A stretch of 64,000 bases of DNA, from assembly GCF_000423065.1 (NCBI RefSeq), contig NZ_AUHG01000017.1:1-64000 (forward strand). The letters are read 5' to 3'. How positions within the stretch are numbered: position 1 is the first letter of the stretch; the number at the start of each line of letters is the position of its first letter. This document shows, one piece after another, positions 37,518 through 49,337 of the stretch. Source of the stretch: Christiangramia echinicola DSM 19838. GTDB lineage: Bacteria > Bacteroidota > Bacteroidia > Flavobacteriales > Flavobacteriaceae. Under the pieces are notes generated by a model, which was given only the letters and a program-made list of their open reading frames with translations, made no database searches and had not been told where the DNA came from. The position numbers and the translations under genes were made by a program.

Positions 37518-38616
37518 TCAATCATCGTTCCGTTGTCCCATCATCATTAAAAAAGATTTTAGAAATGCGTCGATATCACCATTCATCACAGCATCTACAT
37601 TTCCTGTTTCTTCGGCCGTTCTAACGTCTTTTACAAGTTTGTAGGGATGCATCACATAATTTCTAATTTGTGACCCCCATTCTATTTTCATTTTAGAATC
37701 CTCGATCTCTCTTCGTTGTTCCTGTCTCTTCTGAAGTTCGATTTCAAATAACTGGGATTTTAAAAGCTGCATGGCTTTGTTCTTATTTTCAAGCTGAGAT
37801 CTGGTCTCTGAATTTTCAATAACGATACCTGTAGGCTCGTGGTGTAATCTTACCGCGGTTTCCACCTTGTTTACATTCTGTCCTCCAGCCCCTGAAGATC
37901 TCATTGTTTCCCATCTTAAATGTGATGGATTTATATCAATTTCGATAGTATCATCGACTAAGGGATAAACATAAACTGATGCAAATGAAGTATGTCTTTT
38001 GGCATTGGAATCGAATGGTGAAATTCTCACCAGTCTGTGAACTCCATTTTCCCCTTTTAACCAGCCAAAGGCAAATTCACCTTCAATCTCCAGGGTTACG
38101 GTTTTAATTCCAGCTACATCGCCTGCCTGATAATTAAGTTCACGTATCTTATATTTTCGCTTTTCAGCCCACATAAGATACATACGCATGAGCATTTCTG
38201 CCCAATCGCAACTTTCAGTTCCACCTGCACCGGCAGTGATCTGAAGCACAGCGCTCATATTATCGCCTTCTTCAGAAAGCATATTCTTGAATTCAAGATC
38301 TTCTATAAGATCTACAGCCTGATCGTTTCTTTGCTCAACGTCTTCTGCAGTAGCTTCATCCTCTTTGTAGAATTCGTAAATGACCTCAAGGTCATCTACC
38401 AGGGTTTCGGCCTTTTCAAAGTCACCCACCCAGCTTTTTTCAGAATTGACCTCTTTCATGATCTGCTCAGCCTTTTTAGGGTCCTCCCAGAAATCCGGAG
38501 CAAAGGTCTTTTCCTCCATATTGGTTATTTCGATCTTTTTGGCATCAATGTCAAAGATACCTCCTTAACGCAACCAGGCGCTCTTTAAGATCTCTAATAT
38601 TTTCTATTGTAATCAT
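37518..38616 (-). CDS. prfB: Peptide chain release factor 2, with programmed +1 frameshift
   Basis: RF2 terminates translation at UAA and UGA. The full gene starts at ATG 38616 with 21 codons ([21 protein letters not shown]), then an in-frame TGA at 38553-38551. Skipping the T at 38553 reads GAC and continues to 37518, giving 365 aa. The site reads AGG AGG TAT CTT TGA C, close to the E. coli prfB site including the internal Shine-Dalgarno-like AGGAGG. Downstream domains show the SPFD anticodon-mimic tripeptide and the GGQ motif ([11 protein letters not shown]). Expression is autoregulated: low RF2 favours the shift. An annotation starting at 38519 would miss 32 residues. Confidence 0.96.
38551..38565 (-). 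promoter_or_regulatory. prfB: prfB +1 programmed frameshift site
   Basis: The coding strand reads AGG AGG TAT CTT TGA. AGGAGG (38565-38560) acts as the stimulatory Shine-Dalgarno-like element three bases before the CTT-T slippery codon, and the UGA is the RF2-sensitive stop. Confidence 0.93.
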
Positions 38617-45465: not shown

Positions 45466-46506
45466 ATGAGAGAAGACTTAAAGGTTTATGATAATGTATT
45501 ACAGCTAGTAGGTAATACACCGTTGATTCACCTAAACAAAATAACCAGGGGGTATAAAGGACAGTATTTTGCTAAAGTAGAAGCCTTTAACCCGGGACAC
45601 TCTTCAAAAGATAGAATCGCCCTGCACATTATAGAAGAAGCCGAAAGAAAAGGCATCTTAAAACCGGGAGATACCATCATCGAAACTACTTCAGGTAACA
45701 CTGGCTTTAGTATCGCTATGGTAAGCTGTATCAAAGGTTATGAATGTATTTTAGCTGTTAGTTCTAAATCTTCTAAAGATAAGATAGACATGCTAAAAAC
45801 GATGGGAGCGAAGGTCCATGTATGTCCTGCTAATGTTCCTGCAGATGATCCAAGATCTTATTATGAAGTTGCAAAAAGACTTCATTCTGAAATAAAGGGT
45901 TCTGTCTATATTAATCAATACTTTAATGAGTTGAATATTGATGCACATTTTCAATCTACAGGGCCTGAAATTTGGAAACAAACTGAAGGAAAAATCACAC
46001 ATTTAGTGGCTTGTAGCGGGACTGGAGGAACTATCTCTGGAACAGCGAGATATTTAAAAGAACAAAATCCAGATATAAAGATTCTTGGAATAGATGCTTT
46101 TGGATCTGTTCTGAAGAAATATCATGAAACCAGGGAATTTGATAAAGAAGAAATTTATCCATACAGGATAGAAGGTCTTGGTAAGAATTTAATTCCTACA
46201 GCTACAGATTTTGATGTAATAGACAAATTCACTAAAGTAACAGATGAGGAGGCAGCCCACTCTGCAAGGGAACTTGCAAGGTCTGAAGGCCTTTTTGTTG
46301 GGTACACTAGTGGTGCGGCAATGCAGGGATTAAAGCAATTGAATGATGAAGGAGAATTTGACGAGAATTCTAATGTTGTAATTATTTTCCCAGATCACGG
46401 TTCTCGCTATATGAGTAAAATCTATAGTGATGACTGGATGAATGACCAGGGATTTTTCGATACCGAACACGAAAGCAAATCACAATCTATTGATGTGATC
46501 AAATAA
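45466..46506 (+). CDS. PLP-dependent cysteine-synthase-like enzyme (possible cysteate synthase)
   Basis: This 346-aa fold-type II PLP enzyme has the PLP lysine at K48 in [12 protein letters not shown], the substrate loop TSGNTG (75-80), [13 protein letters not shown] for phosphate binding and a late [10 protein letters not shown]. It clearly belongs to the cysteine synthase / cystathionine beta-synthase family. It starts near a -7 element, ends with its own terminator and lies 141 bp upstream of an alpha-oxoamine synthase. Given that neighbour, it may make cysteate for sulfonolipids instead of cysteine; this is inference. Ordinary O-acetylserine sulfhydrylase activity is the alternative. Confidence 0.88.
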
Positions 46507-46528
46507 ATACTTTGTTAACACTTATTAA

Positions 46529-46567
46529 CAAAAGCATCCTATTTTTTGTAGGATGCTTTTGTTTTTA
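46529..46567 (+). terminator. Intrinsic terminator after the cysteine-synthase-like gene
   Basis: AAAAGCATCCTA (46530-46541) pairs with TAGGATGCTTTT (46549-46560), followed by a T-run. Confidence 0.9.
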
Positions 46568-46647
46568 TTAGATTTCGATGTTTATAATTTACTTTGTAGA
46601 ATTGAGCCAAATTTCAGTATTTTTGCGGCTCGTCTAAAAAATGACCG

Positions 46648-47910
46648 ATGAAGGATTTATTTGATAAAATTTACAAAGACAAAGGACCGCTAGGTAAATG
46701 GGCTGAGCAGGCAGAGGGATATTTCGTTTTTCCTAAACTGGAAGGACCAATTTCTAACCGTATGAAATTCCGTGGTAAGGAAGTTATTACCTGGAGTATC
46801 AACGATTACCTGGGGCTTGCCAACCATCCTGAAGTTCGTAAAGTAGATGCAGAAGCAGCAGCCGAATATGGTTCTGCATATCCTATGGGTGCTAGAATGA
46901 TGAGTGGGCATACCGACCTTCACGAGAAATTACAGGATGAACTTGCATCTTTTGTTCATAAACAATCAGCATATTTATTGAATTTTGGTTACCAGGGAAT
47001 GGTGTCTACTATTGACGCATTGGTTTCTAAACAGGATGTTATTGTATATGATGTAGATGCACATGCTTGTATTATTGATGGTGTAAGATTACACTTAGGC
47101 CAGAGATTTACTTACAAGCATAACGATATGGAAAGTATCGAGAAAAACCTGCAACGAGCTACCAAGATTGCTGAACAAACCGGAGGCGGGATACTTTTGA
47201 TCTCAGAAGGTGTTTTTGGAATGCGTGGTGAGCAGGGTAGACTAAAAGAAATTGTTGAGCTTAAGAAAAAATATAATTTCAGATTATTTGTAGATGATGC
47301 TCATGGTTTTGGAACTCTTGGTAAAACTGGAGCCGGTGCAGGTGAGGAGCAGGGAGTTCAGGACGAAATAGATGTATATTTCGCAACTTTCGCAAAATCT
47401 CTTGCAAGTACAGGTGCCTTCATCGCCGGTGATAAAGAGATCATGGATTATTTAAAATATAATCTCAGGTCACAGATGTTCGCTAAATCATTGCAAATGC
47501 AATTGGTTGTTGGAGCATTAAAACGTTTGGAAATGCTTAGAACTATGCCAGAGCTTAAAGAGAAGCTTTGGGAGAATGTAAATGCATTACAAAACGGATT
47601 AAAGAACAAAGGATTTGATATTGGTACTACACAAAGTTGTGTGACTCCAGTATACCTTAAAGGAAGTATTCCAGAAGCCATGGCTTTAGTGAAGGATCTA
47701 CGTGAGAACCACGGAGTATTCTGTTCTATAGTTGTGTACCCGGTAATTCCAAAAGGACTTATCCTTCTTAGAATGATCCCAACGGCAACGCATACTATTC
47801 AGGATATTAATGAAACACTAGAGGCATTCTCAGCAATTAGAGAAAGACTTGAAAATGGTACTTATAAAAGACTTTCTGCCTCTGTAGAAGCAGCGATGTC
47901 TAATAAGTAA
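46648..47910 (+). CDS. Alpha-oxoamine synthase family (SPT/cysteate acyltransferase-like)
   Basis: This 420-aa PLP enzyme joins an amino acid with an acyl thioester, releasing CO2. Visible motifs are SINDYLGLANHPEV (residues 50-63), the VDDAHG Asp-His site (215-220) and the PLP lysine K250 in ATFAKSLASTGAFIAG, which resembles serine palmitoyltransferase more than BioF. Gliding flavobacteria use a related enzyme to condense cysteate with an acyl donor to make capnine. The upstream cysteine-synthase-like gene makes that role plausible. Alternatives are serine palmitoyltransferase or glycine C-acetyltransferase. A possible promoter (TTTG ... TATTTTG) lies near 46593-46625. Confidence 0.88.
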   Translation: MKDLFDKIYKDKGPLGKWAEQAEGYFVFPKLEGPISNRMKFRGKEVITWSINDYLGLANHPEVRKVDAEAAAEYGSAYPMGARMMSGHTDLHEKLQDELASFVHKQSAYLLNFGYQGMVSTIDALVSKQDVIVYDVDAHACIIDGVRLHLGQRFTYKHNDMESIEKNLQRATKIAEQTGGGILLISEGVFGMRGEQGRLKEIVELKKKYNFRLFVDDAHGFGTLGKTGAGAGEEQGVQDEIDVYFATFAKSLASTGAFIAGDKEIMDYLKYNLRSQMFAKSLQMQLVVGALKRLEMLRTMPELKEKLWENVNALQNGLKNKGFDIGTTQSCVTPVYLKGSIPEAMALVKDLRENHGVFCSIVVYPVIPKGLILLRMIPTATHTIQDINETLEAFSAIRERLENGTYKRLSASVEAAMSNK

Positions 47911-47929
47911 AAAGATAAATTCTATATAA

Positions 47930-47962
47930 AAAAAGCCTCGTTTATAGCGAGGCTTTTTTTAT
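47930..47962. terminator. Bidirectional intrinsic terminator
   Basis: AAGCCTCG (47933-47940) pairs with CGAGGCTT (47948-47955), flanked by A- and T-runs, between convergent genes. Confidence 0.9.
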
Positions 47963-47977
47963 TTAGAATATTTTCAG

Positions 47978-48949
47978 TTAGTTGTTGTTGCCATCTCCGC
48001 CATCATCTTCGCCTTCGTTCTCTCTACTTAACTTTTCACTTCTTCGCCTTCTTTTATTTCCTTCATTGGATTCCTCCAGAAATTCATCGACTTTATGTAG
48101 ATCCAGCCTGTAAGAAACACCAGCTCCAACCTGCCATTTTGAAGGAGTATCTTTAAAGTTAACCAGGCCCGAGATGTCAAACTGTAAGTTCTTACCAATT
48201 AAATAAGCGCCCCCAGCCCTTAAAATATCATCAGCATAAATATCACCTTTAATGGCCTGGTATTCCCCGAATATTGCCATATTCTGGCTCAAAGTATGAG
48301 TTACCGTAACGATCCCTGTATAGGATCTAAAATCTTCAGAAAGTTTGTCGGCAATTAAGTTCAATACTAATACCCAACGACCCCAGTTGTTCTGAGTAAT
48401 AATAGCTGCTTTCGGACTAAATTTCCCTTCACCTTCAAATAAGTACGGATTATCCCCAAAAGCAACGTTTGCCCCTGCATAAATTGAAATTGCCGGAATT
48501 AATGTTTTCCATTTAAATCGCTGATTCGCTTTCCAGCTATATAAATTTGGTTTGTCTTCTTCAAGACTTTTATAAGGATCAAAGATGAGGTATTTAGCGC
48601 CAATAGTATTAGATTTAAAATTACTTATCTTTCCTTCACTAGTAACCCCCAGAAAATCCCGGTAGATATTTTGAGATTCAAAAGCACCTGAAATATTTAA
48701 TTCAAGGTTCTCGAAAAGTAATCCATATCTCAATTGGTAATCTACTCCCCATAGATCTGTTTCTGTACCAAGCCCCGTATGTTCTTCATCACCAAAATAT
48801 AGACCAGATTCTAACTGTATTACATTTGTCCCTACGGCAAAAGCACCCTGAGATTGTCCCGGCCGGTTGGAATTTATGGTTTCGGTATATTGAGCGTGAA
48901 GACTGGTAGCAATAATTAGAAATAGGCTAAATACGGCTGATTTACGCAT
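47978..48949 (-). CDS. Outer-membrane transporter-like protein (Phenol_MetA_deg type)
   Basis: This 323-aa protein starts at ATG 48949 (MRKSAVFSLFLIIATSLHAQ, signal peptide). The -7 element at 48971-48978 rules out a longer in-frame start at 49156. The mature protein begins TINSNRPGQSQGAFAVG and continues as alternating strands typical of a 12-14-strand barrel of the MetA/phenol-degradation transporter type. The final 35 residues are highly charged, with KRRRRSEKLSRENEGEDDGG, an unusual tail that probably sits in the periplasm. Transport substrate unknown. Confidence 0.82.
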   Translation of the reverse strand: MRKSAVFSLFLIIATSLHAQYTETINSNRPGQSQGAFAVGTNVIQLESGLYFGDEEHTGLGTETDLWGVDYQLRYGLLFENLELNISGAFESQNIYRDFLGVTSEGKISNFKSNTIGAKYLIFDPYKSLEEDKPNLYSWKANQRFKWKTLIPAISIYAGANVAFGDNPYLFEGEGKFSPKAAIITQNNWGRWVLVLNLIADKLSEDFRSYTGIVTVTHTLSQNMAIFGEYQAIKGDIYADDILRAGGAYLIGKNLQFDISGLVNFKDTPSKWQVGAGVSYRLDLHKVDEFLEESNEGNKRRRRSEKLSRENEGEDDGGDGNNN

Positions 48950-48970
48950 AGTTAATTGGGTTGATTCTAT

Positions 48971-48978
48971 CAAAGATA
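48971..48978 (-). promoter_or_regulatory. -7 promoter element for the outer-membrane protein
   Basis: The top strand CAAAGATA is TATCTTTG on the coding strand, an exact TAnnTTTG match 21 nt upstream of the ATG at 48949. Confidence 0.65.
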
Positions 48979-49055
48979 TAAGATTTATTATAATTTTATA
49001 GCTGAAACTTCCCTGATTGTGGCGGCTTCTTTTTATTTTTACAAAAAGTTTTAGA

Positions 49056-49337
49056 ATGTTAGAAGCATCTATGTCTGGAGTATTAAAAACGGTACTTATA
49101 GTTCTGTTAGTATACTTTGGTCTTAAAATATTACTTCGGTTTTTTGGGCCTCTCATCCTTAAATGGTTTATGAAAAAGATGGGGCAGAAATTTGAAAAAC
49201 AATTCAGCCAGCAATTTGGAGGCGCCCAACAAACTCAGGATAAAAAAGGAAAAGTAAGTATCGATAAAAAGCCAAAAAATGGAAACCAATCCAATAAAAA
49301 TGTTGGTGAATATATCGATTACGAAGAAATTGATTAA
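49056..49337 (+). CDS. DUF4834 family small membrane protein
   Basis: This 93-aa protein starts MLEASMSGVLKT at 49056 (a second ATG at 49071 is possible). One or two membrane spans (residues about 8-40: TVLIVLLVYFGLKILLRFFG) are followed by a basic amphipathic region (KMGQKFEKQFSQQFGG) and a Lys/Asn-rich tail ending VGEYIDYEEID, the conserved end of DUF4834. Function is not established. The gene precedes the yfhO-like gene by 78 bp, with a hairpin between them. Confidence 0.82.
   Translation: MLEASMSGVLKTVLIVLLVYFGLKILLRFFGPLILKWFMKKMGQKFEKQFSQQFGGAQQTQDKKGKVSIDKKPKNGNQSNKNVGEYIDYEEID

Follow-up and report, generated by a model that had tools for sequence, protein, structure and literature searches.

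A capA-capB gene pair, very likely of capnine biosynthesis, in a Gramella/Christiangramia-type flavobacterium

The stretch of DNA treated here (the window) is 64,000 nucleotides long and represents bases 1-64000 of contig 6 in the assembly of Christiangramia echinicola DSM 19838, a genome of 3.51 Mb in 18 contigs. At positions 45466-47910 it carries two co-directional genes, capA and capB, whose predicted products are a cysteate synthase and a cysteate fatty acyltransferase (CFAT), the enzymes that would build the capnine backbone of the sulfonolipids, lipids with reported links to gliding, to the development of choanoflagellates and to inflammation in the host (PMC9304779, PMC11211663; these and the other papers cited by PMC number were available in part, and what is said of them refers to those parts). 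The pair is an ordinary member of a published and already known pathway (PMC10191378, PMC11211663): CapA, CapB and CapC have been described in Capnocytophaga (PMC10191378, citing Liu et al. 2022), as have Cys, CFAT and 3-ketocapnine reductases in Chryseobacterium gleum, and the reductase genes do not adjoin cfat and cys (PMC11211663). Among the matches listed, the nearest named relatives by CFAT identity are Gramella jeungdoensis and Christiangramia bathymodioli, at 97% each.

The two enzymes and the reaction sequence they suggest

The features on which the argument depends are the following.

45466-46506, + strand: capA, predicted cysteate synthase of 346 aa, a fold-type II pyridoxal phosphate (PLP) enzyme (NF053679, PDB 9k2p, tree)
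46527-46563, + strand: intrinsic terminator of capA, a 16-pair hairpin and then a T-rich tail (two separate scans)
46593-46625, + strand: promoter-like element of capB, comprising TTTG (46593-46596), a 21-nt spacer and TATTTTTG (46618-46625) (read from the sequence)
46648-47910, + strand: capB (CFAT, SulA), predicted cysteate fatty acyltransferase of 420 aa, with Schiff-base Lys250 and with Lys280 at the place of SulA Lys281 (structures, residues, tree)

Both reading frames begin with ATG, and a gap of 141 bp lies between them. An earlier note on this DNA had placed a fold-type II PLP enzyme bearing NPGHSSKDR and TSGNTG directly upstream of an alpha-oxoamine synthase (AOS) with the lysine motif ATFAKSLASTG, and had proposed that the first makes cysteate and the second the sulfonolipid backbone. 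Both motifs do lie in the 346-aa frame, and TFAKSLASTG is present in the 420-aa frame, where residue 250 is the Schiff-base lysine. The proposed function of the first enzyme is supported, at the level of sequence, by the curated cysteate synthase model NF053679 (CysteaSynCapA, an NCBIfam equivalog), on which the protein scores 661.9 bits for a cut-off of 600, while Pfam recognizes PALP alone. Its best match among solved structures is 9k2p (548 bits, 68.7% identity), followed by a cystathionine beta-synthase (CBS) at 280 bits, and in a tree of 26 rows it falls inside a CapA clade of 13 (support 96/84), with L140 as a long branch outside that clade.

On the aligned sequences, NTG[FY]S together with NQYFN separates CapA from its relatives better than NPGH does. 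The first motif is found in the CapA rows and the second in all of these except L140 (NQNFN), and the Bacteroidota CBS types in the same tree have NTGMG and mostly NQYDN. NPGH, or the longer NPGHSSKDR, was set aside as a diagnostic, as NPGH also occurs in three CBS-type relatives (L174, L177, L179) and is missing from the CapA-like L051 and L140.

For the second enzyme, the 420-aa protein matches PDB 28eh, an entry named cysteate-C-fatty acyltransferase, with 722.5 bits and 74.1% identity, and 7u7h, which is SulA of Alistipes finegoldii (PMC9304779), with 579.7 bits and 60.2% identity. All seven active-site residues that were checked are shared with SulA, namely Lys281 and the catalytic and PLP residues Asn53, His140, Asp217, His220, Lys251 and Arg376 (SulA numbering). 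Among 67 aligned rows the Lys281 equivalent is found in all 52 of the CFAT clade and in none of the 15 others (nine serine palmitoyltransferases (SPT), three further AOS, Kbl, BioF and an AOS-GNAT fusion), which carry A, N or T at this position. The 52 lysine rows form a single clade with support of 100/100, and the window protein lies in it beside 28eh and 7u7h, in the company of cysteate acyltransferases of known structure and apart from SPT and Kbl, clustering with either of which the earlier note had named as counter-evidence. The tree has long branches outside the CFAT clade and a long-branch join of SPT and fused CFATs, and is relied upon only for this placement. By its published description, the CFAT of Flavobacterium johnsoniae (Fjoh_2419) is the same enzyme as that of the window. 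Structure matches, residues and clade together argue for the sulfonolipid-backbone AOS that had been proposed.

It could be supposed instead that the 420-aa enzyme is an SPT for sphingolipids and its upstream neighbour a cysteine synthase or CBS of ordinary sulfur metabolism. The fold families are indeed the same; SPT 3a2b (245.9 bits) is the best structure match outside the CFATs and shares the fold, the PLP chemistry and most active-site residues, and CBS structures come after 9k2p in the match list of the first enzyme. The identity to 3a2b is nonetheless 34.1%, as opposed to 74% to the CFAT, and Ala takes the place of Lys280 in that protein, as it does in all nine SPT rows; the tree points the same way, and the SPT model NF047600 gives 303 bits where 640 are needed. 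With respect to the first enzyme, CapA passes the cut-off of its own model whereas the CBS, CysK and CysM models remain below theirs (NCBIfam, the best 25 of 40 models), and the genome encodes a separate CysM (L015) over its cut-off as well as a CBS-type paralogue (L014, 328 aa). The latter is 55% identical to CapA, scores 473.6 bits on NF053679, below the cut-off, and clusters with second copies from other genomes of the same family (99/98 in the 26-row tree). The SPT/CBS alternative is accordingly regarded as highly improbable.

Searched with the CFAT as query, the source genome yielded no other enzyme of the CFAT clade, the presence of which the earlier note would have held against its own proposal, and SPT was without a match at E <= 1e-110. 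The same CFAT query recovered three other AOS: Kbl (over its cut-off), a BioF-like protein (under its cut-off), which is followed by an ORF that we read by eye as BioD, and the AOS-GNAT fusion L012.

By analogy with characterized relatives, CapA would exchange the phosphate group of O-phosphoserine for sulfite to form L-cysteate, and CapB would form a PLP aldimine with cysteate, condense it with a fatty acyl group carried by acyl carrier protein (ACP), and release CO2 to leave 3-ketocapnine. Completion of the sulfonolipid would take two further enzymes encoded elsewhere, a reductase (CapC/KCR) and an N-acyltransferase. The substrates, the products, the acyl-ACP donor and the production of sulfonolipid by the strain are all carried over from those relatives, while the family identities, the active-site residues, the clade, the searches that returned neither paralogue nor SPT, and the terminator with its promoter-like box are observations on the DNA itself. 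It is very likely that 45466-47910 is the capA-capB pair of capnine biosynthesis in a flavobacterium of the Gramella/Christiangramia type, which would make this organism one more likely capnine producer. A supply of sulfite in the strain is plausible, judging from matches to CysC, CysD and CysN over their cut-offs and from the presence of a CysH-like protein. In relation to the described CapA/CapB(/CapC) pathway, the two enzyme families are the same and CapA stands directly upstream of CFAT in most examined loci; there is no difference of kind, and in the window a terminator and a promoter-like box come between the genes.

Several points weigh against this assignment. No NCBIfam model confirms the CFAT, all 11 models matched having fallen below their cut-offs, and 9k2p, the structure nearest to CapA, carries no cysteate synthase name in its file. 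The CysH-like protein falls short of its NCBIfam cut-off (126.5 versus 154), the third and fourth enzymes of the pathway are not among the genes identified in this genome, and a GNAT protein of some 372 aa, discussed below, has no match in it at E <= 0.001. The adjacency of capA and CFAT is not universal either, being found in 12 of 30 genomes of the same family within a phylum sample of 296 genomes. Finally, sulfonolipids in this strain are a prediction from its genes.

Transcription of the pair

The terminator that the earlier note had seen between the two genes is real: the hairpin begins 20 bp past the end of capA and is followed by the tail TTTATTAGAT. Seven terminator-like sites occur in the region, versus 3.9 +/- 2.2 in shuffles, and the capA hairpin has the longest stem of the seven. 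The promoter consensus of Bacteroidota is TTTG/TAnnTTTG, and the element ahead of capB fits it.

The arrangement was compared across a set of related loci (the best 80 of at least 592 CFAT loci, a selection biased towards near relatives), and CapA is the gene immediately ahead of CFAT in 78 of them, in keeping with the synteny expected of such a pair. Of the remaining two, L071 begins 294 bases before the CFAT, too short a stretch for a verdict, and L058 lacks CapA in 10 kb of upstream sequence. Seventy of the 78 gaps measure at least 80 bp. Within these 70, a terminator by the scan rule is found in 44, as against 1.3% of 700 shuffled gaps, and a TAnnTTTG box in 67, as against 12.7%; the shuffles preserve base composition and constitute a weak control. 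The full TTTG...TAnnTTTG pair at the required spacing is seen in few loci only, and the hairpin sequences are in most loci unlike one another.

We conclude that capA and capB are probably separate transcription units, like most of their long-gap relatives. Co-transcription through read-through, despite the hairpin, has some precedent in the set: eight of the 78 gaps are shorter than 80 bp (five have no gap at all) and no hairpin was found there, so co-transcription probably does occur within the group, and 26 of the 70 longer gaps show no terminator by the scan rule. In the window, however, the 16-pair stem with its T tail and the promoter-like box both intervene, a -7-like box recurs in nearly all of the longer gaps, and the two genes lie apart in 18 of the 30 same-family genomes; read-through is therefore unlikely here, and separate transcription units remain the reading that we prefer.

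Distribution of CFAT, CapA and other sources of cysteate

Within the phylum sample, a CFAT-clade hit was taken as at least 378 bits, a CapA-like protein as more than 500 bits, the archaeal-type cysteate synthase TIGR03844 at E <= 1e-60, and the GNAT neighbour at 1e-20. CFAT-clade hits occur in 108 of the 296 genomes (the window's family accounts for 30, a second family of the order for 6, the rest of the class for 34 and genomes outside it for 38), with the Lys281 equivalent checked in an aligned subset of these carriers. CapA-like proteins are present in 37 genomes, 30 of them over the cut-off of 600, and CapA and CFAT are adjacent in 6 of 6 genomes of the second family and in 1 of the 34 carriers elsewhere in the class. 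Within the window's own family, the 18 genomes in which they are not adjacent comprise all 17 of genus g2 and G088; seven have the genes on one contig, 123-623 kb apart, and 11 have them on different draft contigs, a situation in which a break between neighbouring genes is not always excludable. Genus g2 keeps both capA and capB, adjacent in 0 of its 17 genomes, on one contig in 7 and on different contigs in 10.

Alistipes, unlike the window, is reported to obtain its cysteate from an archaeal-type synthase and not from CapA, and Odoribacter is described in the same way (PMC10191378). No match to TIGR03844 is found in the source genome at E <= 1e-60 (the control, Methanosarcina acetivorans, does match), and no case of the Alistipes/Odoribacter type, with this synthase and CFAT together, was recognized in the phylum sample. 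The synthase was dismissed as a general partner of CFAT, being present in 5 of the 296 genomes and in none of the 108 CFAT carriers. The five genomes (G085, G183, G239, G242 and G293) belong to family f29, where the synthase is over its cut-off and the cysteate may serve another product. At these thresholds, neither a CapA-like protein nor the archaeal-type synthase is detected in 71 of the 108 CFAT carriers.

It has been remarked that sphingolipids and sulfonolipids may exclude each other (PMC10191378). An SPT over its cut-off is found in 10 of the 296 genomes, and seven of the ten (G033, G091, G099, G190, G214, G253 and G261) also encode a Lys281-type CFAT, a co-occurrence that, at the gene level only, bears against mutual exclusion. 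We also considered a conserved CFAT neighbour outside the window's family, by clustering the genes around CFAT at 32 loci from the phylum sample, with CapA and CFAT itself set aside (in L127 the frame taken was the one antisense to CFAT); the cluster that borders CFAT in the largest number of families, namely three (f8, f9 and f10), is a biotin carboxylase, an enzyme for which the pathway has no place.

Another class has 4 genomes, out of 117, in which the CFAT hit is embedded in an open frame that spans 1113-1188 codons, as follows.

L127:4472-7852: fused CFAT of 1126 aa
L128:5571-8897: fused CFAT
L129:2145-5576: fused CFAT
G316 (L200): fused CFAT

By Pfam, the domain order in L127 and L128 is an AMP-binding domain (like that of a fatty acyl-AMP ligase), a phosphopantetheine carrier and the AOS, and the diagnostic Lys281 is retained in L127, L128 and L129. 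CFATs fused to apparent acyl-loading domains offer a testable point. A limited search on sulfonolipids and fatty acyl-AMP ligases brought up a review whose available passages are silent on such fusions, a result that does not make them undescribed.

A candidate enzyme for N-acylation

Past the end of capB, and in relatives of the window, the following features are of interest.

47911-47977, no strand: site occupied in L150 and L158 by a GNAT gene, which is flanked there by CFAT and by the next gene's homologue; the window has no such gene
47930-47958, no strand: hairpin flanked by runs of A and T, situated where capB and the next gene converge and probably terminating in both directions (read by eye; absent from the terminator scan list)
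47978-49156, convergent with capB: the next gene, PF13557
L158:8278-9396, L150:4931-6049, L034:11313-12428 and others: examples of the tandem-GNAT gene

The GNAT gene of approximately 372 codons is convergent to CFAT and situated just past its end in 49 of the 80 related loci, in 40 of these within 600 bp; 28 of the 31 loci without it have at least 1.5 kb past the CFAT, including L018, L019 and L020, the nearest relatives of the window. Among the phylum genomes, 21 of the 30 from the same family have it no more than 1 kb from CFAT and always convergent, and these 21 include 13 of the 17 genomes of genus g2, where CapA stands elsewhere. Among the matches listed, more distant members of the GNAT family follow an SPT-type enzyme directly and on its strand in 64 of the 76 genomes listed for both (median gap 102 bp); the 10 genomes with an SPT over its cut-off contribute five to the 64, two in which the genes are not adjacent and three without a listed position. 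Presence alone was rejected as proof of a role, since 97 of the 108 genomes with CFAT, but also 180 of the 188 without it, have a match to the GNAT protein at 1e-20. Because presence does not track CFAT, the argument rests on gene position, and its location beside both SPT-type enzymes and CFAT makes this protein a candidate for the N-acylation step.

Of 14 members, 13 match PF00583 at E <= 0.001, with a best E of 1.5e-8, which is modest support; no NCBIfam model matched the two members examined, and the family profile found nothing under E 0.1 among the sequences of solved structures. A structural model (mean predicted local distance difference test score, pLDDT, 76.9; predicted template modelling score, pTM, 0.76) aligns best with tandem-GNAT acyltransferases (best Z 20.9, root-mean-square deviation 3.7, 302 residues aligned) and less well with N-myristoyltransferases (Z 14-15). 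On the strength of the model, the protein has a GNAT acyltransferase fold; a shared fold does not show the substrate.

The available parts of PMC10191378 and PMC11211663 name no Bacteroidota enzyme for N-acylation, and we found no literature joining serine palmitoyltransferase, GNAT, Bacteroides and ceramide synthase. An N-acyltransferase of Caulobacter has been described (bCerS/CC_1154; PMC11087976, PMC11324152), and the likeness to the GNAT neighbour is one of proposed role, the N-acylation of an SPT-type long-chain base. It is reasonable to postulate, albeit tentatively and at somewhat less than even odds, that the tandem-GNAT protein serves Bacteroidota as the N-acyltransferase by which a sphingoid or capnine base receives its second acyl chain, and that it has been lost in the window's lineage, where capnine would accumulate or another enzyme would be used. 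The survey in this way yields both a candidate for capnine N-acylation and a lineage without it.

Full sulfonolipid production by the strain is less sure than production of the capnine precursor, because the genome is without the GNAT gene that usually accompanies CFAT in the family. One may ask whether the lineage stops at capnine (or at free cysteate), or else completes the lipid with an N-acyltransferase unlike that of its relatives. The missing gene is common beside CFAT in the family and absent from the loci of the nearest relatives as well, the same GNAT query matches 277 of the 296 phylum genomes at 1e-20, and free capnine does occur in the lipids of Capnocytophaga (PMC9304779). Yet the GNAT protein is no more than a candidate for its role, and the CFAT gene fjoh_2419 is needed for sulfonolipids in F. 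johnsoniae (PMC12045153), so the general route does reach the lipid. On balance such an early stop, or a divergent final enzyme, appears quite improbable, and a capnine pathway of the usual kind is the more credible reading.

The source genome also encodes a fusion of an AOS with a GNAT/FemAB-like domain, of 810 aa (G000:C3, L012:1387-3819). This protein was discarded as a general capnine N-acyltransferase, its GNAT half being found in 7 of the 296 genomes compared with 108 that have CFAT. Elsewhere in the window, at 37518-38519 on the - strand, lies a release-factor gene with PCRF and RF-1 domains, the frame of which presumably may begin after a programmed frameshift, as is often the case in prfB.

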